Shown here: in pieces, positions 10,622-61,225 of the stretch
Layout: each line of letters begins with the position of its first letter
How positions within the stretch are numbered: position 1 is the first letter of the stretch
DNA from: Rhizomucor pusillus
Lineage: Eukaryota; Mucoromycota; Mucoromycetes; Mucorales; Lichtheimiaceae
NCBI GenBank assembly: GCA_900175165.2
Contig: FWWN02000293.1
Location: 1 to 62,790, forward strand
Length of the DNA stretch: 62,790 nucleotides
Reading direction: 5' to 3'
The notes under the pieces: generated by a model
Database searches by the model: none
Seen by the model: only the letters and a program-made list of their open reading frames with translations
What the model was told of the DNA's origin: nothing
Translations under genes and position numbers: made by a program

Positions 10622-12807
10622 AAACCGAAACGAATAAAGCATTGCAGCATGTAAATATTGTTATACTAACAATGACTGATGACGGAGCTTGGAGGCACAG
10701 GTTTCATATGCATTTATTAGTCAAACCTTTTGAGTCAAACCTTTCTGCACAAAGGAATGTTCTATGTGTCTGCTGTAGCAAAAGTGCATGGACTGGCTGT
10801 CAGATGGAGTGATCAGCATTCTTAAATTCCAGAATTCATAGACTGCATCAAAGTCAATAAGCGTTTCCACAGGATGCTTATTCAGGTACAAAATCGCAGT
10901 GGTGATCTCATGCTTGCCATATAGCTATTCGCAGTTTTTGCAAAAAAAAAAAAAAAACCATACATGGTAGGGGACACTAAAGGAGTCTGTGTTGCCTCAA
11001 CAACGTTGTTTCAGTTTTGGAGATGCTTTCATGGGATATGCTCGCCCATATGAAAGAGAAGAGCAACCGGCGGCGCTATCTTTTAATCGTCAGAGGTTTG
11101 GGAAACTTTCCAATCCTGCGTTTTCTTTGCAAAAAGGTAACGCCCACGAAATCTGTGGGTTCATGGTTCATGTTGCCAATGATACTCCACTGAACTCGTC
11201 CAGATTGCAGTAACTTGACACTATAACACTTTGCAGGGCAGCTGATCATGACATTTTTTGCCCTTTGACGTTTCCTCTGTCTCTCGCCGTTAACTGCAAA
11301 TATCCACTGCACTGATGAGGGGGCAGCTACCAGATGACAATAGAAGATGCTAGAGGTTTCCGCTGTTCGTTTCCAGGCTTGTATCTTGACCACTCGACGC
11401 ACTTCCCATACTAACAAAAAAAAAGGGACAAAAGAGCAATTCTGCGAGAATCTGACGTAGCTCTTTATTGATGCGAACTCGTAGAGCTTTATACACTTTT
11501 CCCAAAAGTAATGTCGCATTTTGTGAAATTTTATAATACATTTATACACCATAACGACAAATCGCAGCGACATTAATTTTTGGAAAAGGTGTATATGTTA
11601 TGTTCATTTAAATTAAAGTTTAAGAGAGAGTTGCTAAAAGAAGACTTTGTTATTGTTACGCGCAGATCCATAATAGGCGTAATGCGCACTTGAAAGTTTC
11701 TCTTTTATTCCAAGTCGGCAATTCTTCCGTTCGTGATGTCAGTCTTAAGCAAACTGGGAAGAAACGTGAGCACAGGCGCCAAATTTATTGGCAAGCAACA
11801 CTCGCACTTTTTTTTCTTAAAGCCGCCATTTATTTCTGGATGCACTGTATGATACGATAAAGGAACGTGTGTGACCACGTACAATGTCATCGCTAACTGA
11901 GAAAATGGAACGGACGGAACAGTCAAACTATCTTGTGATGGTCCGGGAAATAGTGGTAGGTTCTCGGCCTACGGTCTCAGCCGAAGAATCAACTATTTTT
12001 GATATACTACATAGTGGTCAACAACTGTAGGTATAGTAAATTATAGTCATCACCAAGTCAGAATCAACGATGGTATATATGCAGAAACTAGACTTGATTA
12101 CTCGCGCGCTGTAGGATTATCTCGTAACTAACATGTCGGCCTGAAGGATTCAGCTGGTAACTCAAGCTATGAATGCGACTTCGCTCAGAACATCCATGTG
12201 TCTGTTACGGCTTCCGAGATGCTGCACAGCATACTACAGATATAGTAGCAAAGTACAGTACGTCGCTCGTTAGGTTCTTCTGATTTCCTTCTTTGCACTT
12301 GCGGGCGTATGTTTCTTGATAAACTTTGTTCTGGTTGATCGTCCTTTCTATAAACAGCCAATGGGTGTTACTCCCCCCGATTTTGTGCTTAGAGAGTGTG
12401 GGTACATCGCCAACAAAAAATCTGCAACAATCTTTTCGTCTTCAATCTTTATTCTTTTCATGTTTCTTTTTACGAAACTTGACAAGAGTATCATTATCAA
12501 CATAACCATTTGCAAATTGAAATCTTCTTCCAATAATTTCTGTTAAGTATACCTAAACTCGACAAAATGATAGACACGGCTGCTGATACCTTATGTTTAG
12601 CAACAAGCTCTATTGTAAGCTTAAACGAGGTCAATCGTTATGTCACGTACTCATATCCTACTGGTATCCAAAACAAGAAACAATACAAGTTTATCCAAAA
12701 AAAAATAATACACGTTATCTCGAGCTGAGACGCTCGAGCAACATCTGTGAGTATTTAAAGTACCCTAGTTGCATTATATACTACAGTATACCATATTTCG
12801 TAGTTGA
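10622..12807. other. Long AT-rich intergenic region with a miniature TIR element
   Basis: No gene is supported between BDP1 and the FEN1-like locus. The region contains an A-run (about 10942-10957) and the miniature inverted-repeat element at 11490-11595. The ORF at 11076-11573 (minus) runs into that element and is not coding-like. Several short ORFs near 12316-12820 are AT-rich and unrecognised. This marks the left flank of the accessory block. Confidence 0.5.
11490..11595. mobile_element. Miniature inverted-repeat element (MITE), copy 1
   Basis: A 106-nt unit begins TATACACTTTTCCCAAAAG and ends with the inverted complement, GGAAAAGGTGTATA. The terminal inverted repeats are about 28 nt and imperfect; both reach the inner motif AATGTCGC/GCGACATT. 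The outer TA/TA is consistent with a Tc1/mariner-type target duplication. The internal 50 nt carries no coding capacity. A second copy about 90 percent identical lies at 18580-18684, so it is a dispersed repeat and not a chance palindrome. No autonomous mariner transposase is visible in the window. Confidence 0.75.
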
Positions 12808-14116
12808 ATGGATCTTATAGGACTACATGCATACCTACGACGAACACGAACGACAGAAGGGCGCCACATGGCTTCTTATCTCCGACAAAACGACTGTCTA
12901 CATCGATTTTTGCTGCGATTTCTTCCGGTTGCTTCAGGAGTACGCTGTAGGATTCTTGCGCGTTACCAGTTCCCGCCGAGAAGCACTTCAACAGCAAGAT
13001 CACTACACTGACATCGTCAGGCTTTTCGTGCTTCGTGAGATGGACAAATTGAACGCCTTTGCCAATCAAAGCGGCGTTACCAAAATCTGCCTGGTCTTCG
13101 ACGGAGCTCGGCTGCAAGCCAAGAAAAGTCTGGCTTTCAAGAAGGCACAGCGGCCGAACGAAGAATTGAACCGCAGCTTCAATGCACTGAAGCATCGTCT
13201 CCGCGAAAAGTACGCCAGGCAATGGGTGAGCTTTACCCCAGCCATCAAACACGCAATCATCCAGCAGTTGGATGCCAGGCGAGACCCTCGACGCTACACT
13301 TGTGATTTCGCCGACGAGGATGCTACCATATTCATACACGAGGCTCCGTTTGAGGCTGATCCAGAAATCGTGTATTTATGCAACAGCATCCGTTCTGCCA
13401 TTATGTCCCGAGATGGCGATTTATTCGCATATCAAGGCGCCCTGGACGTTCCGGTAACTGTAGAATGAAATAGCTTGTATTCTTTTTCAACGCTTGTATG
13501 CTGACTGATCTTTTTGTTGCCTTCTAGCGTATAACAAAGATGAACTGGCGCGAAGGTCCTCAACGGCATCACGGGACAGTATCAACCAAACGGAGTCTTT
13601 TAACGGCTTTCATGGGGCTGCAAGCTAGAATTACAGACGATCAAGCCATAAATGTAAGGTTTTCAATTGTTACTGGTTTGATTGCATTTACTGATACACT
13701 GAGTTACAGGCTGAAATCCGGTTTGTCGTCTTGGCAGTTACCTGTGGCAATGACTATGCCAGAAATCTTCGAGGGTGAAAGCAGCCGATGCGCTCCTGTT
13801 AACCTTGATGAACAATATCGGCGCTGAAATATCAGACTTTGAATTGCAAAGATTCAGAGTTGCGCTCCACCAGTTCTGCCGCCCTCTGGTCTCTGGAATT
13901 CACACTGGCCAAGCACCAATCCATTATGGTGGCATCCATCTCCATCAAGTGGATCAACAGATTCTTGAAGGCCTTGAACGTGCTGCTGCAAGAACAACCC
14001 CGCAGAGATCCAACCAAAACCCTGATCACGGAAGTCGTTACAGGTTGATCGCTCCAGCACCTGAACTTGATGAAGATGTGACCGAAGAAGAACACGTTGG
14101 ACGGCATGCCCCGTAA
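12808..14116 (+). pseudogene. FEN1/XPG-like structure-specific nuclease, frameshifted
   Basis: This is a FEN1/XPG-type PIN nuclease. The possible N-terminus at 12808 reads MDLIGLHAYLRR, like the XPG-N start; the rest runs in another frame from about 12827. The conserved acidic residues of FEN1 can be placed: VYIDFCCDFF (Asp, 12905), LVFDGARL (Asp, 13100), FEADPEIVYL (13352-13366), SRDGDLFAYQG (13412-13420) and the helix-turn-helix region TCGNDYARNLRG (Asp, 13752). Two GT-AG introns (13454-13527, 13654-13709) keep the frame. Translation breaks at a GGG run at 13773-13775, where one missing G would explain the shift into KAADALLLTLMNN. It ends at a TAA near 14114, after which the same frame continues as a Lys-rich linker into the Fanzor-like region. 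It was either a separate upstream gene or the N-terminal half of a fusion. It is distinct from housekeeping FEN1, which lacks such a partner. Confidence 0.7.
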
Positions 14117-17100
14117 GATACAGGTGCTTCAAAAAGCAGCGAGAAGAAGACCAAGAGCGTCAAAAAAGGCAAAGCTAAGCGTACTGTGGCTGTAACAAAA
14201 CGGCTAGCACAATTTATCAAGGATACTGCAAGCGGTGAAATCAAGGATGCTTCCCCGGAAAAGATTACTTACAAAGATCCTGACACCGGAAAGCACATCA
14301 ACCTTCATCAAAAATCCAGATATGTTGCAACTGTGGATGCTGGTCTCTATTCATCTATACTCGCTGCCGCTGTCGATCGAGCAAGGAGGGATCAAAAACC
14401 AGATCATGAAGGCGTAGCTGAGGCATCGCTCATCAACAAGGTTATCGACAAGGTAGTTGATGAGATGTCTCGTGTCCGATATGTGGGCAATCATATCGCC
14501 AACATGGCCATACGCGAGGCATACTATTGGGACAGTGACGCAATGCTGGAATTCTACGAGCTCTTCTTCCAAGATGGCAAGAAGGCGGCTCAGGATATAT
14601 GACGACATATCTTCTATTGTGCAACGAACTATGAGCCCATGACAAGACATGGATCAGGCCCAAGCAGCTGAAGCAGCTGCCTTTATACCAGGCTCGGAGA
14701 TCTTGGGAAACAGATGGCCGACTACGTGGAGGAGATGAAGACCAACAGATCTCTTCAAGGCGTTTGCAGCAGACACTGCTTTCCGCTCTTTGTCTGCAAT
14801 GATGACGAGAAATTTGGAGCGAAACATCCTGCTGAAGGCAAGGAAAAAATGGTATGAAGAGTGTTCCGCTGAGATGTGCACGGCACCAAATACGGCGCAC
14901 ATGTGTACTATGGTCACCGAAATCGCCAATACCTCCAGTGTTGATTTTTCGCAAAAACATCGTCTACAACTTCAAAGATCGTTACTGCGATTATCTTCGG
15001 TCGCGTCTCAGGGAAATGGCTCAAGTTCCAATTGCATGGCCTACACCCAACAACGACAGATTCGGTGAATTTATCCAAGACATCGTCGATTCTGTTCGTG
15101 ACAGAATTCAGCGCGCAGATACACCGCGGATGACTGCCGCTGGTACCCCAACTCCAGGACAAAGGTTCGATTACATTGCAGACGGTACCGTTCGCGATCA
15201 AGTCGTCAGGTTTATAACCAGGATGGTACATCGCTACAGGAACTCTGCTAAACCTTTTGATGGAGCAAAGTGCAGACTTGAAGTTGAAAACAACGCGACG
15301 GTACCCTCAGGATGGCCGAGAAACAAGACCAAGCTTGTCGCTGCGTTGTTTCAAAGAATTTTGGGGATGTCACTTGAACCTAGCGAAGCTGGTGCTGACC
15401 AAGAAGATCAAGAAGACGGAGATCTTGAAGAACAAGAACAAGAAGGGCAAGAATCCAGCGATGTACTTGCAGGCTTGGCACGCAACAACAGATTGAAAAC
15501 TTTATCAACACCGAGCATAATCTTGAAGTGAAAGGTGTCCGTGTTTCTGATATCGATCTGTTCGAATGTCTCCATCAAGACGATCAATCTGCTCAGATTG
15601 GAAGCAGCAGTATGGATGAAGAAGGCGACAATGAGGAAGATGACGAGGATGACGAGGACAATGCACTGCATAGGAAACACAGAGGCAAACTTTCCAAAGC
15701 AGATGGTGCAAGCTGATTCCACTCTTGATTCACTTTCGGGAAAGGCGTGAAGGACGCACACAGTCTTTTGCTTTGTGTCCTCTCCAAGCATGTCATCGAA
15801 TTGCTCTCCTTTTCAATATTTCATTTACAAGAGATTTGCTCAACAACATCGATGTTCTGGCTCGCCCATTAATTCAGCAATTGGAGCAAGAAGATGAAAG
15901 TACTCGAAATGTAGAACGGATTGCTGAATTGAGAAGAAGTACATAGGAATTATTATCCGTATGTAGTTCGGCAAAGATAACTTATGTTACAACTTTAGAG
16001 CGAAATAATTTACAAAATGCATGTGCAAGACTCAAGGGCATCAACAAAATCGATCCGTTCCGCGTACTTTTTGACATACGGCGCCAAGCTACCATCCAAC
16101 GAGATGGGAATGTGGAGATACGAGACAGAGGCTATATGCGTTGGTTAAGCCAAACAATACCAGGTACAGGTAATGAAAACAAGCTCCGTTTTTCGAGGCG
16201 TCGTATTTTTCGTACTGACGGAATTCGCCTATACTGCTTATACAATGACTGGCTGAGATCACGTCATGGAAATACTACATGCAAGTATTTGACGGAGCTG
16301 AGGCGAACTACGAGGGAAACCTTGAAAGACGTATGGGAACACAACTCGTCCGGAAACCAGTTCAATTATTTGCAGCATTACGATGGTGTCCTTGGTCTGG
16401 ATTTCGGAGAGGTCTGTGCTGTTGCAAGCGTGTCCCAACCAACGGAGCCTGGAATAAAAGTTCACAGCTCATCATCAAGCGAGGCTACTTGTATGGCCGA
16501 ACTATCCCAAATCGCGACTGGCTTGAGACTCGCAGGTCCGTTAACAACATTGATGATATCGAGGCCGCCTTGAGCGAAGGATCAACCCGAAGTACTTATG
16601 CCAGATATCAGACGTACCTGCAAACTCTCAAGGCAAACGACAACAGCCTCCGGTTGTGGAACTTTTACTCGAATCGATCCGTACGTCGCAGGGTCTGGGA
16701 CAATGCAATATCACAGAGATTGTGTCTTGACAAGGCTTGCTATCTCGTCATGAATCAAGCCAACAACACTTTGCTATGAGGCAACAAATGCATCCAGAAA
16801 GTATGATTCAGCGTACCAACCGCCCTCTTGTCTATGGTTTCGGCCTGGACGGAATGAGCAGGAAATCGAGAAAGGGAGCTCTTGCACCGATGGATCACAA
16901 GCTTGCCAACGCTCTGTACCGGAAAATCAAGCAACGTAACCGTCGTCGTGATAGCACGAACGCCGATATAGCCACAAGAGTCGATGAGTACCTCTCCTCA
17001 AAAATGTGCTGCTATTGCACCAAGCAAGGTCGGGAGCAACGAGTCGATTTTCTGCAGCGAACCCCTGTGGTACCAGTACGAGACGCGGCTCGATTGGACG

Positions 17101-17499
17101 ATGGTCATGAAAAGGTTCCAAGTGGTTACTTGCCAGAATTGCAACCGTGTATTTCATCGGGATGGTAACACTGCAGACAATCTGGCGTCTATTACACAGT
17201 ACATGCTACGGTTCCAAGACCGCCCGCGCTGGTTCATCCGGCCATCAAGACGTCAAAGAACAGATAGTGACAGAGGGATTACGGCGACTTCCGGTTCCCG
17301 AGGACGTCGTGGCGAAAGAGAGATTACGACGTCATCCGGTGCTCCACGACGGAAAAGGACCGCTAGCGAAACGGAGACAATGGTCGAACCATCCTGGTCT
17401 CCGCAACAAGAAACACCAGAATCGTCCAGTGCACCGCTGAGACGATGCAAAAGGTTGCGCTCCAAACCAAAAAGATGGATCCACGAGTCAGGTGGATAG
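14117..17499 (+). pseudogene. Fanzor (eukaryotic TnpB-like RNA-guided nuclease), multiply frameshifted
   Basis: The C-terminal third has TnpB/Fanzor architecture. RuvC-I is GVLGLDFGEV (Asp codon 16400-16402). A helical segment follows with YQTYLQTLKANDNSLRLW and RRRVWDNAISQR. VYGFGLDG comes next, then RVDEYLSSKMCCYC, with a Glu just before the first zinc-ribbon pair. The second pair is CQNC, and RuvC-III is FHRDGNTADN (Asp codon 17161-17163). Fanzor proteins are reported to use a relocated catalytic Glu rather than the canonical RuvC-II one, and VDEYLSS fits that. The N-terminal half (14186-15500) is helical, Lys/Arg-rich and unrecognised, with RYVATVDAGLYSS and KGKNPAMYLQAWHA. Frame changes occur near 14610, 14935 (T-run), 15400-15490, 15715-16110, 16455, 16740 and 17030, so the copy is decayed. 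A basic, disordered tail follows RuvC-III. Confidence 0.72.
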
Positions 17500-17518
17500 G
17501 GCCTTGCGCCCGGTATCC
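17494..17518 (+). other. Hairpin overlapping the Fanzor stop codon (possible guide-RNA scaffold)
   Basis: GGATAGGGC pairs with GCCC(GG)TATCC around a CTTGC loop, directly across the TAG at 17497-17499. TnpB and Fanzor guide RNAs are typically transcribed from the 3' end of the nuclease gene and the sequence beyond it, so this is the expected position for a scaffold stem. The functional assignment is inference only; a hairpin this short can occur by chance. Confidence 0.3.
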
Positions 17519-18389
17519 AGTAAGTGTCATTCTTTCCTATAATATGTTCTTAATGCTCACCATATGAACTATGCACCGCGGCTTGAGGAGCTCGGCATGG
17601 CTTTGTCACATTTCTAGACAGGTTTGTGAAATGTGTCAATATCAAAACTACTGCAACGCGACAACTAATGTCGTTTATTAGCGTCATGCTTAGCTTCGCA
17701 AGTCCGCCAAATGCATCTGCAAAACGTGACTTTATTTTTCGGAAATACAGTACTTCAGTCCATTGAAAAGACGATTGATTGAAGTCTGAGTAGTCGGCCT
17801 AATAACAATTCAACGAATACTTCTTGATGCCGTGCTTATAATTCTATTCCAGCTTATGTCAGACACGACAAAAGGATACAATATCTTTACTGGCGAATTC
17901 GATGTTGCTGGAATATTCCTCCGAGCCAGCCAATCAGACACGCCTTCGGCGTAATGGTTTTGCCGGATTATTGATTACTGACCTGAAGCGCATTCGAGGT
18001 TTCTGATCCCGGACGAAAATGTCGGGGCTGTCCCCAAGCATAGGCGTTTCATGCCCAGAGAAATCCCGGTCGACCAAAAAAAGGAAACCAAGACTGCGGA
18101 GTTGAGTAATCCAAATTAGGAAGTTCAAAGAAACTCCGAGAACAGCAGGAACAAGCTTGAATATCCAAGTGTATAGGTTGAGCATTTCTAGTTACTTCTA
18201 GGACCATCCCATTAGAAAAGTAGATATACAACCAGTTGAATAGAATAAAGAAGAAGCTCTTTAATTGAGAACATCCTCTGCCTATTTTATTCGGATTTCA
18301 CTCGGTATAACTGCTAGATTGAACCCGGTTCGAGGAAATATCAAAGTACTAGACATTTAGGAAAGAATAATTCGACAAGTGCACCAGCT
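17519..18389. other. Intergenic between Fanzor relic and tRNA
   Basis: No supported gene. An 83-codon minus frame (17934-18185) has a hydrophobic start and a charged end, but no domain I know and stops on both sides. If the Fanzor element had a right boundary or guide-RNA segment it should lie in the first few hundred bases here; I could not define an end. Confidence 0.4.
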
Positions 18390-18472
18390 GGTAACATGGC
18401 CGAGTTGGTCTAAGGCGCCAGACTCAAGTTCTGGTCTCGCAAGAGGCGTGAGTTCGAATCTCACTGTTACCA
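18390..18472 (+). tRNA. tRNA-Leu (anticodon CAA)
   Basis: The 83-nt gene folds into a class II tRNA. The acceptor stem is GGTAACA/TGTTACC, the D arm contains the A-box-like TGGCCGAGTTGG, the anticodon stem CCAGA/TCTGG encloses CTCAAGT with anticodon CAA, a long variable arm (TCTCGCAAGAGGC) follows, and the T arm is GTGAG-TTCGAAT-CTCAC with the B box. The discriminator base is A. The long variable arm and CAA anticodon identify leucine. No intron interrupts the anticodon loop, although this isoacceptor is often intron-bearing in other fungi. It appears fully functional and sits between decayed elements. Confidence 0.95.
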
Positions 18473-18497
18473 ATTGATATTCAGCTTTGTATCGGTC

Positions 18498-18502
18498 TTT
18501 TT
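18498..18502 (+). terminator. Pol III T-run terminator of tRNA-Leu
   Basis: Five consecutive T residues lie 26 nt after the tRNA 3' end, a standard RNA polymerase III stop signal. No earlier run of four T was seen between the tRNA and this point. Confidence 0.6.
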
Positions 18503-18579
18503 GCGTTTTCTGCCATGGACTTCGTACCTTCCTTTTCTTGATACTTTTTTCATATACTTATCCATCTCACAAACATTGA

Positions 18580-18684
18580 TATACACTCTTTCCAGAAAGT
18601 AATGTCGCATTTTGTGAAATTTATAACACATTTATACACCAAAACGACTAATTGCAGCGACATTAATTTTTGGAAAAAGTGTAT
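18580..18684. mobile_element. Miniature inverted-repeat element (MITE), copy 2
   Basis: This unit begins TATACACTCTTTCCAGAAAG, has the inner AATGTCGC motif, and ends GCGACATTAATTTTTGGAAA followed by AAGTGTAT. It aligns over its whole length with the copy at 11490-11595, with about ten scattered differences, and in the same orientation. TIRs are about 28 nt. A TA lies at the left end; the right outer bases have changed to TT. The short ORF that overlaps it (18550-18750, minus) is a shadow of the repeat. Confidence 0.75.
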
Positions 18685-18907
18685 TTTAGCCATTCCCTCT
18701 GTTATCATAAAGCCGAAGTTGTAGAAAGATATAAATACCCTAGAAGTCAAAAGAATATATCAAACTTAACTACCTTCTGTCTTCGTGGTCTTCTCCTTTC
18801 CTCTCTGTGTGATCTCGTAACGCAAAACAAGAAGCATTACGACACTTGGAAATTTGAGCATGTTTCAAGGTGGGTGCACCTCAAAGGGATGAGGTGACAA
18901 TTTCAAA

Positions 18908-21016
18908 CATGACTGCTCAATTTTTATACGAAGATGGACAAGGAAATGTTGTCGATGAGAACGGTAGACCTGAGCCCATGGACTACATCGTTAACCAGGA
19001 GCAATTTGCACTTGAGACGATTAGTTCTCATACTCAGTATTTGCAAAAGCCTGCGGAGAAATCTGGAGCTATTCCGATCGGTCCATTAATGTACGAGTTT
19101 TTGACCAATAAACGCACGTTCCAAACTTAGGCATCTGAAATTTATTTCTATGGTGTGGTTTGCTTGCAACGTCGACTCCCCTTTCTCATTAGCCTTTGGG
19201 TCTTAGTTGATCGCGCTATCGCAAAGAACTTTTTCGTAATGCCCCCTGCTTTACCATTGTTAGCCGTAAACGCGCGTGTATCCGTTGCTCCACGCTACTT
19301 GCGCACGACACCGGTCTATGAGCTCCTGCGCAGTCTCGTTGTTCTCGATGCGCCAAGAATTCGACTTCATAGTGTCATTCTGCAGGAAACAGTCCTCGAT
19401 GGAAAGCCTGCTTGGACCGTCAAGCTAGATCGATTGCTCGATCTACCAGTTGATCTTTTGGGAATAAGCCAGCGAGGCATTCCAAGGTCGTGCGCAGCTG
19501 CATATCTCAGTTAAGGAATATGCGTTTCCAATGAGCATGCAGTTTCTGTCATGGCAAACTTTGAACCTTTCACGTACTCTGAGTACTTGATTTGGATAAG
19601 TTTCTTCATTTTGATGGCAACAGTGTCGATAACATTAAGACGTACCGGCATGAGGGTCCATTAGCAAACCTACTGCTTATCGACTTCAGACAATACATGA
19701 ACAGACAAAGATTCGACTTTATCATGCAAATGCATATCTATTACCGGCCTGGTGCAGCTAGGTGATCTATTCCTTACGTGAAGTGATTGTATTTTGTCAA
19801 TGCAACTATGTTTCATTAGAGGCGAAGAGAAACCTTTCTATCAATTTCGAGACTTCGTCAAAACCTATAATGACAATTTTGCCGATGCTTTGACTCCAGG
19901 CAGATATCTTTGCGTTGATGAAAGTATGTGTCAATGGCTGGGAAAGAGAGTGCCCTTCTTGAAAAAGGTGGTCCGTAAGCCTCATCCGGTCGACCAGGAG
20001 TATAAAACTCTAGCTGATGCGGCAACAAACTGCATCATTCGCGTTGATGTCAATGGAGATACTGTGCCGCAAGAGTTTGACGATATTTTCAGCATGAAAA
20101 CCGTTGTCTCGGTCGCCAAGCTTACAAAGCCTTGGTTTATTCTGGCAGAACAGTAATTGCAGATTCGTGGTTTGGATCACCAACGATGGTCCGAGAACTG
20201 AAAGTATTCGGCTTGTATTCCTTTATGCAAGTGAAAAAAAAAAGGAGATATTGGCCAAGAGAAATGCCTGAAAACGATATCTTAAACGACCTGGGATCGA
20301 CGTTTGGCAGCTTTGTTTGCAGCAAGTCTACAATAGACGATGTTTATGTGACAGCATTGCGCGCTCGCCAGCCAATGGTTATGATCAGCAATTGCAGTGT
20401 TACGGCGCACAGTGACTGAGAGATAAAACGATATCTTCGGAAAGTGGTATGAACACGATGAAAAGGCCAATTGTGTTCGATGAGTACGAAGCAAACAAAG
20501 GTAAATATAAGCTGTAAAGGTGATGACAGCATATGCAAATAATAATCTTTCGTGTGTTACAGGAGCCGTCGATATCGCAAACAATAAACGGGACAATCTG
20601 ACTTCTTTCCATGATGTTATGCGGTCTTATAGATGGGAAGTCAGAATTTTAGCATTCTTCTTGCCTATTGCAGAAGCCAACGCATTTTCTGCATATCCTC
20701 TTTTCGCTCAGGACGGGCATGACACCCTTCATGGGGATTTCAGATATAGGTTGGGCATGATATTACTTTCGCATGCCCAAACTCTTCAGCAAGGCCAACA
20801 ACCAGTGTCAGGTATTGGGACCAGATCCGAGAGTGGCCGAATCGATCACAAACGTGTCTCTTTGGGGCACGACAAGAAGGGCCATTATCGAAAGCGTATC
20901 TGTCTTGAGCTTGGATGCCGCAAGAAATCTTCGCTTAGGTGCGCCTGTGGCTCCGACATTGTCTTTTGTCGAGAACATCTGGACAGGCACTTACTAGATC
21001 AAGGCAAAAAACCTTA
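18908..21016 (+). pseudogene. piggyBac-like transposase, decayed
   Basis: The catalytic region resembles piggyBac (DDE_Tnp_1_7) transposases. GRYLCVDESMCQWLG holds the first Asp, KPHPVDQEYKTLAD and CIIRVDVNGD the second, and SGRTVIADSWFGSPTMV the third. QVKKKRRYWP follows. The C-terminal cysteine-rich domain (C-x4-C-x6-CAC, then C-x2-H-x3-H) is at 20905-20990. Upstream, 18908-19127 encodes an acidic leader and 19155-19514 a domain containing ARVSVAPRYLRTTPVYELLR. Several stops lie between 19514 and 19790, the frame breaks again near 20150 and a stop falls near 20419, so it cannot make an intact enzyme. TTAA occurs nearby, but terminal repeats could not be defined. A domesticated transposase is unlikely because the catalytic core itself is broken. 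Confidence 0.75.
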
Positions 21017-54401: not shown

Positions 54402-56091
54402 ATGTCGAACGAAAAAGGTCAAGAAATATACGATGCGACTGCGATAGAGGCGACATTAGTCCGCAAGATAAACTGGACAGCTATCCCGTTGTTGAATATA
54501 ATTCAGACCATACAGGTAAAGGGAAAATACTTGAATGCATGCTGACGGCACGAAGGCCATGCTAAGTAAGTGGATAGATAATTGACAAGGCCATGCTCAG
54601 TTATTCGGCGATGCTGGGGATATTCCGAGACACCGGTACCACGATCGAGCAGTTTGGCTGGCTAGGTGCTGTATTCTACATTGGATACCTTGTTGCACAG
54701 GCAAGCACAGACTAGTAGTATCAATAAGCTTGTCTAGTCTTAGCAATGAAAACATGCTCTTGGTTTACAAGTAGATCTTCTTTGTTGTTTTAGATACCAA
54801 ATTCCCTCGCAATGCAGCGTTTTGAGATATCAAAATACCTAGGTCTTGTTTTGATCGGTCTAGGCATTGTGCTCGGAAGCACTGCACTGTGCAAAACGTT
54901 CCCACAGCTGCTTGGGGCCCGAATCCTGCTTGGTGCGTTCGAGGCAGCCGTGTATCCTTGCATATTCCTAATGATTAGTACACTGTATCGACGCTCGGAG
55001 CAAGTCATCTGGTTCTCAAGCATTTTCATGACAGATGAACTAGCTATCATTGCAAGCAGTTTGATCATGTACAGTTTGGGATACATCGACGGCGCTGTCG
55101 GCATCAGTGCATGGCAATGGTAATTAGAAGCAAATATTTTCCAGGGTTTTCCAATAACCGCATCATCGTCATTCTTGTAAAAAGGGGCATGATACTGTGG
55201 GGCAGTGCCACAGTAGTCGTAGGTCTGGTAGCCTTTTTCTTTTTACCGGATAAGCCAACATCAAGGTGGTTTCGGCTGTCGCCCATCGAAAGGAAGGTTG
55301 TCGAGGACCGCATACGGGACAACACTGTCGTGCGAGACACGACCTTCAAGTGGACGCATGTTCGAGAATTTCAGAGCCACGATTTTATTCTTATTTGGTA
55401 GTATCTGTTTGTATCAACCTACTTAACGGATGCTTTACTGTGTTTCAATCGCAAATCATCAGCGACATGGGATTCACGGTGTGTTACTTGGTTAGTCCTG
55501 AAGGTGACATTTAAAAGGCTCATATTCTTTCAGGATCTAGATGCGCTGCTACTCAACATACCACCAACCATCACCGACATGGCAATAATGGCATTAGCTA
55601 TCTGGCTGAGCCATAGATATTCTGAGGTCTCGTATCTAGCTGCACTGTTCCAGTTGATACCATTTGCAGGCATTGTTCTACTGCTAACGCTGCCTAGTGG
55701 AGGATCGCAGCTGGTCGGATTATATTTCGCTTACTGCACGGCACCCACCTACTCTTTTCTTTTTACATCTGTCTCTAACAACGTGGCTGGATACACGAAG
55801 AAAATATTTTACAACGCGAGCCTCGTGGTAGCTTACTCTGTTGGAAACTTCGTCGGACCGCTATTGATCCTGCAGCAAGAAAGACCGAGATACCTGAGTG
55901 CTATGGTTACGTACGCGGCAGCCGCTCTATTGTGCTCGATCTCATTTCTTTGTATACGATGGGACATAGTGCGTCGAAATCAATACAGAGAAGAGCTGCG
56001 TCGCACAGGCGAGCTCCCTCCCACACCAGAAAACAGACAGGAACTGGATCTCACAGACAAAGAAGACCTGAATTTTGTTTATCGTACCTAA
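54402..56091 (+). pseudogene. MFS anion:cation symporter (allantoate permease type), copy 1, 4-nt deletion
   Basis: Five exons correspond to those of copy 3: 54402-54515, 54578-54700, 54794-55119, 55185-55478 and 55534-56091. The product is a DAL5/ACS-family major facilitator with IPNSLAMQRFEISKYLG, RILLGAFEAAVYPCIF, LYRRSEQVIWFSS, LPDKPTSRWFRLSPIERKVVEDRIRDNT and a second six-helix half. Exon 4 is 294 nt against 298 in copies 2 and 3. After VRE the bases corresponding to GCAA/GCGA are missing (near 55368), so the frame runs into a stop at IW. The rest remains open, suggesting recent inactivation. The second intron has a GC donor (54701). Substrate is unknown; the family includes allantoate, nicotinate and other organic-anion carriers. 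Confidence 0.82.
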
Positions 56092-56405
56092 AAATTGTAT
56101 ATAAATAGCTTCTAATGCAACTGGTATCATTAAGTACCTAAAGAATATAAACAAGTAGCAATATGTTATCTAGAGGGATTTACTTCTTCAATTTTTTGCC
56201 ACCAGATCGATATCCAACAAGTTCACTGTACATTTAGTGCATTGCATAACGTCTAATTCAAATTAGCAATAGGGACGGAGCATGAGTTTAAACATTCTCC
56301 ACCCTCATTTCTTTCATGCATGATAAGTGCAGCAGACGATATCCAGTTGCATATGTTGGTTTTCTACACATTATTCTTTTTCCTTGCTTATTGCACTGCT
56401 TTATC

Positions 56406-58094
56406 ATGTTGGTCAAACGAGATCAAGAAACGAATACCGCAGATGAGGCTCGGTTGGTTCGCAAGATAAACTGGACTAGTATACCTCTGCTGGACATGGC
56501 ACAAGCGTTGCAGGTGAAGGGAAACAGTCATACGTCCACGCAAAAGAAGATATGTTAAATGTGTGGATAGATAATCGATAAGATGCTTCTCAGCTATTCT
56601 GCAATTTGGGAATATTTCGATATACCGGCATTACGATGGAGCAGTTTGGCTGGCTAGGTGCCATATTCTATGTTGGATATTTGCTTGCACAGGTAAGCAC
56701 CAATGTAAACCCGTAGCAGATAAATGAAAAAGTAAGATTATGGAGTCTTACAAATGGAGGAAAACTATTGCCTTGTAGATACCAAACTCGCTCGCGATGC
56801 AGCGTTTTGAGATCTCAAAATATTTCGGTGCCATTTTGATTTGTTTGGTCATAGTACTCGGATGCACTGCACTGTGCCGAACGTTCGCGCAGCTGGTTGC
56901 ACTTCGGATTTTGCTTGCTGTGTTCGAGGCGGGTATATATCCTTGCATATTCCTTCTTATCAGCACATTGTATCGACGCTCCGAGCAAGTCACGTGGTTC
57001 TCAAGTGTTTTCATTGTAAATCAGGCAGCACTTGTAGTGTGCAGTCTGGTCATGTACAGCTTGGGCTACATTGATGGGGCTTCAGGTGTCAGTGCCTGGA
57101 AATGGTAACTAGCAAAAAAAATGTTTATAATTTCCAAACCTCTCCAGTAACAGCATCAATGCTCTTTTTCGCCAAAAAGGGGCATGATTCTCTGGGGTAG
57201 TATCACAGTACTGCTAGGTCTAGTATCCTTTGTCTTTCTGCCCGACAAACCGACATCAAGGTGGTTTCGGCTGTCGCCGATTGAGAAGAAAATAGTCGAG
57301 AACCGCACACGGGATAACACGGTCGTGCGAGATACGACGTTCAAATGGACGCATGTTCTAGAAGCGATTTCAGAGCCACGATTTTACTCTTATTTGGTAG
57401 TCTCTGTTTGTATCAACCTACTTAACGGATGCTTTTCTGTATTTCAATCGCAAATTATCAGCAATCTAGGATTTTCGGTGTGTTATACGAATACTGAACG
57501 ATAAGACGATTGAGCTAAATATTTATGTCTTTGTAGGATCTAGTCGCGGTACTACTCAACATACCACCATGCATAATCGACATTGCAGTGACGGTATTAG
57601 CTATCTGGTTGAGCCATCGATACTCTGAAATTTTGTACCTCGCTTCACTCTTTCAGCTCCTGCCATTTCTGGGCACAGTGCTATTGCTGGCATTGCCTTC
57701 TGGAGGACTGCAACTCGTCGGATTATACCTGGCGTGCTGCACTGCCCCCACCTACTCTTTTCTTTTCACATCTGTCTCAAAAAACGTGACAGGATACACC
57801 AAGAAGATATTTTACAATGCAGGTCTGGTAGTAGCTTACTGCGTTGGCAATTTTGTCGGACCGCTGCTGATCCTGGAACGAGAAAGACCAAGATACCCGA
57901 GTGCTATGGTTGCATACGCAGTGGCGACTCTGTTGACCTCGATCTTGTTTCTTTACATACGCTGGGATATAACGAGACAAAATCGCCATAGAGAGGAATT
58001 GCATCGTACCGGTGATATCCCACCTCCTCCAAAAAACAGAGAGGAGCTGGACCTGACAGACCAGGAAGACTTAAATTTTGTTTATCTCCCCTAA
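56406..58094 (+). pseudogene. MFS anion:cation symporter, copy 2, 1-nt deletion
   Basis: Exons are 56406-56513, 56571-56692, 56779-57104, 57180-57477 and 57537-58094. Exon 2 is 122 nt rather than 123. In the SYSA(M/I)LG region (56601-56610) copies 1 and 3 have GCGATG followed by CTG or TTG, while copy 2 has GCAATTTGG, one base short. Translation therefore shifts before the first large transmembrane block. Exons 3 to 5 are fully open and retain the family motifs ALCRTFAQL, LYRRSEQVTWFSS and LPDKPTSRWFRLSP. The start differs from its siblings (MLVKRDQ instead of MSNEK). The second intron keeps a GT donor where copies 1 and 3 have GC. A base-call error could also explain a single-nucleotide lesion. 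Confidence 0.8.
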
Positions 58095-59528
58095 AAGTAA
58101 CATGTATGAACAGAGGAAAAGCATCAGCTTATCTAGAAATAATGAGAGTAATCATCACCGACTTGGAAAGATTATGGAAGCAATCCGGGAAAAAGCTTTC
58201 TATATCCTGTGGAGCTGTAGCACATGAATCAATCATCAGCTTTATACAATAAAGAGAACTATAATCCATCCCATTAATTATGAAATAAGATATTACGATT
58301 AGTCTCATGATTGAGCGAAAAGGATAAGTGCCCTGGCCGCTAAGTGTGTCGTATCTGAACTTCCCTGTTATACATAGCAGTTCCAAATTACATGAATATT
58401 TGCGGGTCTGGAATTTATGGATAGAGTTTCCTCCAAAGCATGCAGGAGGTACCACCATTGCTGCGAGTTTCTGACTGCTATACAGCAAGGTCGCAGCCTC
58501 TGACATTTCTTCCTTGTACATTCGTAAGGTCTCCAGTAGCGATTTGTTGTTAATGGTTTTCTGCATTCACCCTGCCTACTTCTGTTAGTAAAGTGCACAG
58601 TTAGCATATGACAGTATTTTCTATTTATTTCGTTTGCCTACCGAGACTTTCCCGAAGCAAATCCCCGAATTTGGGCTGACACGCCGCCGAGTGTACTACT
58701 GCATTCGTCTGTCAGATCAAGAGCATAAATCGAGACCAAGATTTTAGTTCTTTGGATTGGGTCCATCTCGTGGATGTGAGAAAGCGACTAGTCCATTTGA
58801 GCTTCAAGCTTAAAGTGGTAGTCTTGCCAAGGACCTTGTCAAAGATATGATGAATCAAGTCGCAAAGATTAGATGTTGCTGATCCGTTCTTCTAGTTTGG
58901 AAAAAAAGAATCCAAGGCTGTTGGGCCTTTAAGCTTGCGCTGGAGACACATATTTGGATATTTCCTGTGTATCTTCTTTGTAATCATTTCGTATTCAACC
59001 AATGTGGAATGAATTGTGGCGCCAAGCAGGCTCCTCATTTGGAATATTAAAGTGCGTGTATTTTATTAAGACTCCACCAGGAAACAAGGAGCGTCGTTGT
59101 CTAATAGAGAGTGTTTCATTGTATTCAGCAATTTAGGCTGTAGTTAATAACGTGACTGATTCTTTCATTGCCTATTACTTGCACTCATTTCAGTGTTAGC
59201 ACTGACCTAGAGCTGCCGACAATCATAGATAAATAAGGCTTGGAGAACTAAACGAAGATCTCATATTCAGGACAGAGATCATACGCTGAGGAATCAATGC
59301 TAACTTCTGGCGGATATCAATGTACAGCATCATCTGTGAAGCACATCAGACTGCAGCGCACCTGCTTCATCTGCACTGAAAGGATGGACCCCTTCAGCTT
59401 ACACGTACTCTTTCCATGCTCGGTATGTTAGCAAATAAGCAGTCAAGCAAGCAAAAGCAAACACTTTTACGCCTACGCTTTATTCCTGTGATCGTTCTTG
59501 ACCTTTTTTTCCATCCTTTTATCCTACA
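58095..59528. other. Spacer between MFS copies 2 and 3, with an unassigned ORF
   Basis: This spacer is much longer than the one between copies 1 and 2. A 145-codon minus frame (58129-58566) reads plausibly (EEMSEAATLLYSSQKLAAMVV near its start) but has no family I recognise. The adjacent upstream sequence to 58960 is open only in pieces. It may be an older decayed gene or insertion. A short pyrimidine-rich leader precedes copy 3. Confidence 0.4.
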
Positions 59529-61225
59529 ATGTCGAACGAAAAGCACCAGGAAATAAATGACGCCGATGAGGCAAGACTAATTCGCAAGATAACCTGGGCT
59601 GCTATTCCATTGCTGAACATGACACAAGCCGTGCAGGTAGAAGAAAACGGTTATGTGTGTGCCAAATAGTGTTCTAAATGAGTGGATAGGAGGTCGACAA
59701 GACCACGCTTAACCATTCGGCGATGTTGGGACTATTTCGAGATACCGGGATTACGATAGAGCAGTTTGGTTGGATAGCTGCCATGTTTTATGTGGGGTAT
59801 TTGATTGTCCAGGCAAGTAATGGCTAGCAGAACAGATTCTCTTGTGGTCCTAGCAGTAAAAATGTATAATCTGAGCTGACAATGGGGAAACAATGCTCTT
59901 AGATACCAAACTCACTCGCATTGCAGCGTTTTCACACATCAAAGTATCTCGGTACCATCTTGATTGGTCTAGGGTTTGTAGTTGGATGCAATGCACTGTG
60001 TCAAACATACGCACAGTTGGTTGGACTTCGAATCCTGCTGGGTGCATTCGCGGCAGCTGTGTATCCTTGCATATTTCTACTGATCAGCACACTGTATCGC
60101 CGCTCAGAGCAAGTCATTTGGTTCTCAAGCATCTATATAACAGACGCAATAGCTGTGATTGTGAACAGCTTGATCATGTACAGTTTGGGATACATCGACG
60201 ATACTGCAGGTGTAAGCGCTTGGCAATGGTAACTAGCAATAAGAGTCTGTGATCTCCTGAAAATTTTCCAATCAATATTAATACGTACTTTATTGCCAAA
60301 AGGGGTATGATACTTTGGGGTGCTATCACAATGCTGCTAGGTCTAGTGTGCTTTGTCTTTTTGCCCGACAAACCGACATCAAGATGGTTTCGATTGTCGC
60401 CCATCGAAAAGAAGATAGTCGAGGAGCGCATACGGGATAACACTGTGGTGCAAACGAGGACGTTCAAATGGACGCATGTTCGAGAAGCAATTTCGGAGCC
60501 ACGATTTTACTGTTACTTGGTTATATGTGTTTGTTTTAACCTCCTTAACGGATGCTTCACTGTGTTTCAATCACAGGTTATCAGCGAGATGGGATTTAAG
60601 GTATGTTAACCGGATAATAGTGCTAGAAGAACGAAACTATGTCACTTAGAAGTTCATCCTTTAATAGGATCTAGATGCGATACTACTCAACATACCATCA
60701 TATGCAGCCGATATAGTAGCAATGGCGACAGCTGCCTGGATGAGCCGAAAGTATTCTGAGATTTCGTATCTCGCTTCACTCTTCCAGCTGCTGCCATTTG
60801 GAGGCATTATTCTGTTACTAATGCTGCCCGCTGGTGGTGTACAGCTGGCAGGATTGTATCTCACGTTTTGCAATGGTCCTATCTACTCTTTCCTTTCCAC
60901 ATCTGTCTCAAACAACGTGACTGGATATACCAAGAAGATATTTTACAATGCAAGTCTCGTGGTAGCTTACTCTGTTGGCAATTTTGTCGGGCCTTTGCTG
61001 ATCCTGGACCGAGAGAGACCAAGATACCCGAGTGCTATGGTCACGTACGCAACAGCAACTCTTTTGACTTCAATCTTGTTTCTTTACATACGCTGGGATA
61101 TAGTACGACGAAACCAACGCAGAGAGGAACTGCGTCGTACCAGCGGCCTCACACTTCCTCCGGAAAACAGAGAAGAACTGGACCTAACAGACAAGGAAGA
61201 CTTGTATTTTGTTTATCTCCCCTGA
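59529..61225 (+). CDS. MFS anion:cation symporter (allantoate permease type), copy 3, intact
   Basis: Five exons (59529-59636, 59690-59812, 59903-60228, 60303-60600, 60668-61225) join without interruption to about 470 residues, the normal size for 12-helix ACS-family major facilitators such as Dal5. Motifs include RKITWAAIPLLN at the cytoplasmic N-terminus, IEQFGWIAAMFYVGYL, LRILLGAFAAAVYPCIF, LYRRSEQVIWFSS, the central loop LPDKPTSRWFRLSPIEKKIVEERIRDNT, and NNVTGYTKKIFYNASLVVAYSVGNFVGP in helices 10-11. It is a plasma-membrane uptake carrier for an organic anion; the substrate cannot be read from sequence. The second intron begins GCAAGT. The third intron boundary (W-GMILWG) is chosen for frame and is less certain. 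This is the only working copy of the tandem array. Confidence 0.85.

Follow-up and report, generated by a model that had tools for sequence, protein, structure and literature searches.

The stretch analysed here (the window, 62,790 nucleotides of Rhizomucor pusillus contig FWWN02000293.1) contains a mobile-element copy, the one detected gene of which is predicted to encode, as a single chain, a 5' nuclease of the FEN1/EXO1 type followed by a basic linker and then a Fanzor-like nuclease. At the sequence level we observe the fusion itself, both sets of nuclease motifs, ratios of nonsynonymous to synonymous substitution rates (dN/dS) below 1 between copies, and a right end common to Tc1/mariner-type elements. 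Our preferred reading is that this is a decayed Mucorales element whose two-nuclease fusion would combine an RNA-guided cut with end processing in cis, promoting copying of the element. We assign this whole chain a probability of about 0.5, whereas the fusion taken alone is very probably a real gene.

We read every frame of 12808-17499 and searched the genome (24.45 Mb, 353 contigs) for copies. The features of the element are as follows.

12774..17753, + strand: mobile-element copy carrying the fusion gene, with copies elsewhere in the same genome
12808..13453, + strand: exon 1, FEN1/EXO1-like, with catalytic acids matching D37, D103, E191, D193, D213 and D215 of the related protein P0002
13454..13527, + strand: intron 1, GT..AG, frame-preserving; P0003, a gene model from Rhizomucor pusillus, has the same exon junction
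13528..13653, + strand: exon 2, FEN1-like by sequence comparison
13654..13709, + strand: intron 2, GT..AG, frame-preserving
13710..14113, + strand: exon 3, FEN1-like, with GNDYA, the seventh catalytic acid and the stretch beyond
14114..14116, + strand: in-frame TAA between the halves in the window copy; the relatives P0005 and P0006 read through
14117..14230, + strand: Lys-rich linker, limits approximate; basic linkers are also seen by eye in P0001, P0002, P0006 and contig C165
14231..16380, + strand: Fanzor-like N-terminal/REC-like region, limits approximate, with several frame breaks; P0002 and P0001 align in order
16381..16480, + strand: RuvC-I, GLDFGE, with the D codon at 16400-16402
16809..17175, + strand: RuvC-II, zinc ribbon and RuvC-III; alternative Glu at 16986-16988, zinc ribbon at 17007-17142, D codon of HRD at 17161-17163
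17497..17499, + strand: stop codon TAG of the Fanzor-like reading frame
17512..17753, + strand: non-coding right end, conserved and structured, final letters CGGAAATACAGTAC; candidate omega-RNA scaffold

The right limit at 17753 is sharp (17 of 44 matches to the region end exactly at 17752-17753 and 22 of 44 within 17752-17758), while the left limit at 12774 is the point where similarity to sister copies ceases. Extra 5' blocks present in sister copies are absent from the window copy. Among the loci fetched from the genome, the window alone extends from the FEN1 part as far as the zinc ribbon with no large deletion.

A preliminary description of this DNA had reported FEN1-type acidic residues in order, two frame-preserving introns, a same-frame continuation past one TAA into a Lys-rich linker, and a frame-broken copy. 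Our analysis bears this out. The motifs VYIDF, FDG, APFEAD, SRDGDLFA and GNDYA follow each other in the FEN1 part, both introns have the borders listed above, and the open frame 13754-14116 closes with the TAA and continues in the same frame over 14117-14602. The copy has more breaks than this description gives: the frame also shifts or stops near 12890, 13777 and 14600 and at several further points as far as about 17110, and the window copy is thus non-functional. The Lys-rich linker may act as a nuclear-localisation signal.

Two predicted nucleases in one chain

The read-through translation was searched against about 5.8 billion proteins, with scoring of the 7,989 candidates that had most words in common with it. 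Two of these, P0001 and P0002, each contain FEN1 as well as Fanzor sequence. P0002 from Lichtheimia hyalospora (1416 aa, 96% query coverage, 33% identity) is unbroken and has both halves in one protein, in agreement with the earlier proposal that a mobile element joins a nuclease of the flap type to a Fanzor-like one. P0001 from Apophysomyces ossiformis (1036 residues, 75% query coverage, 54% identity) has an annotation that begins within the FEN1 half and stops past RuvC-I. A tblastn comparison of these relatives with the window places P0002 collinear with window 12872-17250 and P0001 with 13115-16620, and single alignment pieces cross the window TAA in both (13784-14581 for P0001, 13784-14647 for P0002). 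The case named beforehand as refuting the pairing, in which the halves are never adjacent in homologues, did not occur, as P0002 illustrates.

A query consisting of the FEN1 half only returned 10 proteins. P0006 (Apophysomyces) runs in one frame from GNDYA into the N-terminal part of the Fanzor half, and P0005 (8 member sequences from 7 contigs, with the source tag 'lgn', taken to denote assembled reads) does so from just past GNDYA. P0007 comprises the FEN1 C-terminal part and the linker, P0008 and P0011 come from R. pusillus and are shortened, and P0003 (99% identity over 66% of the query), P0004, P0010 and P0012 are pieces of the FEN1 part; the remaining protein, P0009 from Fennellomyces, is considered below. 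Lichtheimia, Apophysomyces, Rhizomucor and Fennellomyces all belong to the Mucorales. In viral contigs, none of 42 pattern matches was confirmed.

Sequence and modelled fold indicate that the N-terminal half is a 5' nuclease of the FEN1/EXO1 (XPG/Rad2) family, its activity being predicted. The predicted fold resembles EXO1/FEN1 and is the PIN-like one of this family. All seven catalytic acids are present in P0002, and these positions are acidic in all covering alignment rows except P0012 at the last one; in a control, none of 21 other acidic positions is acidic in all rows. The alignment to EXO1 covers six of the seven active-site acids, which presumably correspond to the EXO1 numbering, and the stretch past the seventh also aligns to EXO1. 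With the Pfam model XPG_I (cut-off 24.9), P0009 (26.4 bits) and C165 (27.6 bits) score over the cut-off, while P0001, P0002, P0004 and the window stay under it (window exon 1, 20.4 bits, E 0.00068).

The C-terminal half appears from its motifs to be a Fanzor-like nuclease of the TnpB superfamily with an alternative E, not a Fanzor by the fingerprint of Yoon et al. 2023. The window has GLDFGE, DEY, CCYC...CQNC and HRD. The motif D-X(125,275)-[TS][TS]XX-[C4 zinc finger]-X(5,50)-RD, described by Bao and Jurka (PMC3627910), is present with a gap of 198 both in P0002 and in the window read-through; the second CxxC of the zinc ribbon is CQNC in the window and a degenerate CEHN in P0002. The fingerprint of Yoon et al. 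2023 (PMC10711439) includes a near-exclusive DPG in RuvC-I and an alternative RuvC-II Glu six residues ahead of the zinc finger. This Glu is found (DEYMTSQTC / DEYLSSKMC) and is invariant in seven alignment rows, and DPG occurs in RuvC-I of a cousin, C285, of the same genome. A profile of the C-terminal region (7 rows: window, relatives and cousins) gave five matches in the PDB at E<=10, all of TnpB/Fanzor type, namely LaTranC twice (E 0.0067 and 0.0094), SpuFz1 (E 0.0069, spanning E, zinc ribbon, RD and the final RP..F.R), a TnpB (E 0.17) and a TnpB-like protein (0.35). We take LaTranC to be a relative of TnpB. With the Pfam model TNB (cut-off 26.3), P0008 scores over the cut-off with 27.5 bits; it is the same gene as the copy on C67, which scores 27.9 in the genome search.

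Copies in the genome and the shared right end

Of the nine XPG_I matches in the genome, the one in the window and the one on C165 belong to loci with a Fanzor part. None of the 28 zinc-ribbon matches is found on the contigs of the remaining seven, although two of these contigs, C283 and C23, each hold a distant piece of the shared right end. Identity between C165 and the window over the XPG_I piece is just 45%, and residues 1-784 of P0002 align in order to this contig. An open frame of 282 codons there (L052 3377-4222) takes in the Lys-rich linker together with the beginning of the Fanzor half, and by visual inspection alone it also includes the last ~50 residues of the FEN1 C-terminal part; the core of the FEN1 part is found in different frames or exons, and this locus lacks the C-terminal end.

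In a census by DNA similarity among 20 fetched loci, FEN1-part sequence is present in 6, Fanzor-part sequence in 14 and both in 3 (L039, L040 and L042), to which L052 (C165) is added by protein comparison; most copies are therefore partial. L057 retains the last ~90 bp of the Fanzor part only, and L058 the right end only. L039 and L040 have one common internal deletion, with 13372 joined to 16887, and the frame stays open in L039. In these copies (L039 3476-4348 on C67, L040 2599-4112 on C78) the FEN1 N-terminal part is joined straight to the Fanzor zinc-ribbon part, and short deletion proteins are annotated as R. pusillus gene models (P0008, P0011). Such internally deleted copies may be non-autonomous or domesticated forms.

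Between copies, dN/dS ranges from 0.09 to 0.65 and is below 1 in all 11 codon comparisons (4 in the FEN1 half, 1 in the linker/Fanzor N-terminal part and 6 in the Fanzor half, 73-157 codons each), these being values without computed significance and ratios raised by post-insertion decay.

The segment shared at the right end starts 12 bp past the Fanzor stop; it measures 239-259 bp in ten copies, and three shortened copies retain 189-220 bp of it. Copies were picked by their end pattern (13 of 14 sources fit, L046 does not), so that their common last bases are partly due to selection; the bases beyond the shared end differ between copies. The same segment is found on elements with a Tc1/mariner-type transposase (DDE_3, 71.5 bits). 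When the left side was read in 24 copies, 8 followed Fanzor coding sequence and 16 had the transposase-type left flank of L058 (~200 bp of flank covered for 11 of the 16). The transposase subfamily bearing the FEN1-Fanzor right end comprises L058 1930-3367 (C40), L065-L068 and L069-L079; among the matches listed (40 of 265 candidates), most of that transposase family terminate earlier. On C155 a transposase gene lies upstream of the FEN1-Fanzor spacer, and on C72 transposase fragments, one of them inverted, lie there. This arrangement suggests a composite ancestor of transposase and FEN1-Fanzor element. Within 12774-17753 no DDE transposase of the element's own was found.

We also considered 17512-17753 as an independent short transposon and rejected it. 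Because all 11 further sampled copies share the L058 left flank and none is solo, a shared element end is more likely than an independent transposon, one old insertion per family being possible.

The right end folds more stably than its shuffles in both copies tested (z -2.18 for 17500-17753 and z -2.96 for L066). Rfam at the gathering threshold returned a tRNA only over 12000-19000, and an inverted copy of the right end was not found upstream. In the Spizellomyces ghost loci, Fanzor-less elements share the stretch from the stop codon to the right end, and the pattern at the window right end is alike. By this analogy the 242-bp right end is a candidate omega-RNA scaffold. A sister Fanzor subfamily, subfamily B (L044, L050, L053), has a different right end, ending CAGATAC.

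Several further features lie around the element. A pair of ~105-bp repeats (11490-11594 and 18580-18684, 91.5% identical, with ~28-bp inverted ends) flanks it. A short inverted repeat is located 5' of the gene at 12720-12760; by eye, its arms differ in L039 yet can still pair there, which may point to a conserved hairpin. Outside the element, 18897-19064 resembles a transposase N-terminus (L041 3779-3948, L058), and 19782-20153 is a transposase fragment (DDE_Tnp_1_7, 48 bits), which we take to be of piggyBac kinship. Three tandem sets of similar open reading frames (ORFs) at 54790-61225 look membrane-transporter-like by eye, and two of these ORFs scanned against Pfam gave no match at E<=0.001.

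A possible cut, process and copy mechanism and its alternatives

In the proposed mechanism, the right end would give rise to an omega-RNA, with the flanking DNA as guide, and the Fanzor half would cut the matching element-free site. The FEN1/EXO1 half would then trim 5' ends or flaps at the break, and repair would thereby be steered to copying the element from the sister or homologue. Such a self-contained 'cut, process and copy' homing, in which the in-chain FEN1/EXO1 module resects or trims the guided break before the element is copied, and which possibly also serves Fanzor-less Tc1/mariner-type elements with the same right end, is put forward tentatively.

A number of observations weigh against this reading. 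P0001 and P0002 are predicted gene models known here as proteins only, and P0009 (388 aa) is a FEN1-like half alone. A protein search with residues 440-1416 of P0002 (3,023 candidates) returned P0002 alone, in a search insensitive enough to miss P0001 too. By eye and by pattern, neither terminal inverted repeats nor target duplications were established for the element, nor were a left end or a target-adjacent motif. The right end of subfamily B is not structured (z +1.19, one copy tested), and at the right end only 1 of 43 predicted pairs shows covariation, a test made uninformative by copies that are too alike. The cousin Fanzor loci L061 and L064 (4.5 kb each) gave no FEN1 match and hence suggest, weakly, that the FEN1-Fanzor pairing belongs to one subfamily.

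The remaining points concern the Fanzor half, for which the preliminary description had claimed a TnpB/Fanzor-type C-terminus. The RuvC D, alternative E, zinc ribbon and RD stand, but RuvC-I reads DFG, not DPG, in P0002, P0001 and the window. Family placement by profile succeeded for the C-terminal region, so that the second case named beforehand as refuting the proposal did not occur either, whereas a profile of the whole half had no PDB match at E<=10. TNB scores are under the cut-off for P0002 (22.7), P0015 (18.1) and the window (14.2), and no TnpB model of NCBIfam is over its cut-off, the best being IS607_TnpB on P0008 with 16.8 bits against 350. Structure prediction, proposed earlier for both halves, gave an EXO1/FEN1-like fold for the first, but the AlphaFold2 model of the Fanzor half had a predicted local distance difference test score of 41 and was not used. 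Because of the DFG, the sub-cut-off scores, the missing whole-half match and the lack of a usable fold, we name this half Fanzor-like. Taken together, the earlier observation is confirmed and its interpretation is partly supported: the structural claim holds, and the coupling of target cleavage to end processing during homing would be a further, hypothetical step.

Other explanations question the fusion itself. Two neighbouring genes might have been fused by gene prediction in Lichtheimia and blurred by decay in the window, in line with the predicted status of P0002 and P0001, the stop between the halves in the window and the solitary FEN1-like half of P0009. However, the join lies within one reading frame in P0006 and in P0005 (8 member sequences, 7 contigs), P0001 and P0002 align unbroken across the window stop, and the C165 open frame (L052 3377-4222) spans the linker and the Fanzor N-terminal part, its FEN1 C-terminal end being seen by eye only; we consider this explanation quite unlikely. 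The repeat-rich region and the often partial or rearranged copies might instead point to FEN1 and Fanzor fragments brought together by chance through nested insertions. This is most improbable, as the same order recurs in two other genera (33-54% identity) and at a divergent locus of the same genome, and P0002, P0001 and C165 contradict it unless all three are artefacts.

A real fusion could also have a different role. Enzymes of the FEN1 family recognise 5' flaps, some of them cleaving flaps that contain RNA; with a structured right end present, the FEN1-like half might mature the omega-RNA or remove RNA or R-loop flaps and not act on target DNA. Nothing in the analysis separates RNA from DNA substrates, and EXO1 and FEN1, the proteins nearest in fold, have DNA ends and flaps as their substrates. 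We consider this role unlikely. It is likewise conceivable, though still rather doubtful, that the FEN1-like half is a transposition partner and that the fusion aids a Tc1/mariner transposase in trans or in a composite, for example by tidying gaps after excision. The right end shared with elements of the DDE_3 type (71.5 bits), the transposase gene on C155 and transposase fragments on C72 upstream of the FEN1-Fanzor spacer, and the mariner with transposase, separate endonuclease and Fanzor described by Bao and Jurka (PMC3627910) all fit such a role. However, no complete composite was found, the window element is without a transposase, and the nearest transposase trace is the N-terminal fragment at 18897-19064, outside the element. 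Our preferred reading remains guided cutting followed by end processing in cis.

Comparison with known systems

The preliminary description knew of no described FEN1-Fanzor system, and likewise no FEN1- or XPG-Fanzor fusion was found in the literature searched, which did not cover the large Fanzor survey doi 10.1126/sciadv.adk0171; the words 'XPG', 'flap' and 'FEN' have no occurrence in the main text of PMC3627910. What Fanzors contribute to the eukaryotic transposons that carry them is unknown according to the Saito paper (PMC10432273). The natural attachment of an end-processing nuclease whose active site is strictly conserved directs attention to the step after cutting, and separate active-site mutants allow this step to be tested directly. 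If the proposed mechanism is true, the fusion would also be a ready-made template for genome editors able to bias the repair that follows a cut.

The N-terminal half has the fold and the seven acidic residues in common with EXO1 and FEN1 of the XPG/Rad2 family but, unlike these enzymes, it belongs to a transposon gene and is a portion of a larger chain. The Fanzor1 proteins SpuFz1, PpFz1 and GtFz1, as described in PMC10432273, PMC11423790 and PMC10711439, have the same C-terminal arrangement, with RuvC D, an alternative E that lies six residues ahead of the zinc ribbon, and RD, and are also large, fungal and transposon-borne. Their elements have a conserved stretch from the stop to the right end that is common to Fanzor-less elements, as in the window element. 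In contrast to Fanzor1, the window family has a fused N-terminal FEN1/EXO1-type nuclease and DFG in place of DPG, and sequence similarity is low (SpuFz1 profile E 0.0069). PpFz1 also carries an added domain, the FRI insertion, which differs from the FEN1 fusion.

The Fanzor elements MCi-2 and ROr-4/PBl-3/MCi-4 (PMC3627910) are also from Mucorales, and the copies of MCi-2 have common 3' parts and differing 5' parts, again as in the window element. The nearest precedent found is the mariner PGv-1 and its relatives (Bao and Jurka 2013, PMC3627910), which encode a transposase, a separate GIY-YIG endonuclease and a Fanzor. Both systems have a Tc1/mariner context and combine a Fanzor with a second endonuclease; however, while the GIY-YIG enzyme of PGv-1 is a protein of its own, the endonuclease described here is of the FEN1/EXO1 type and is located in the same chain.

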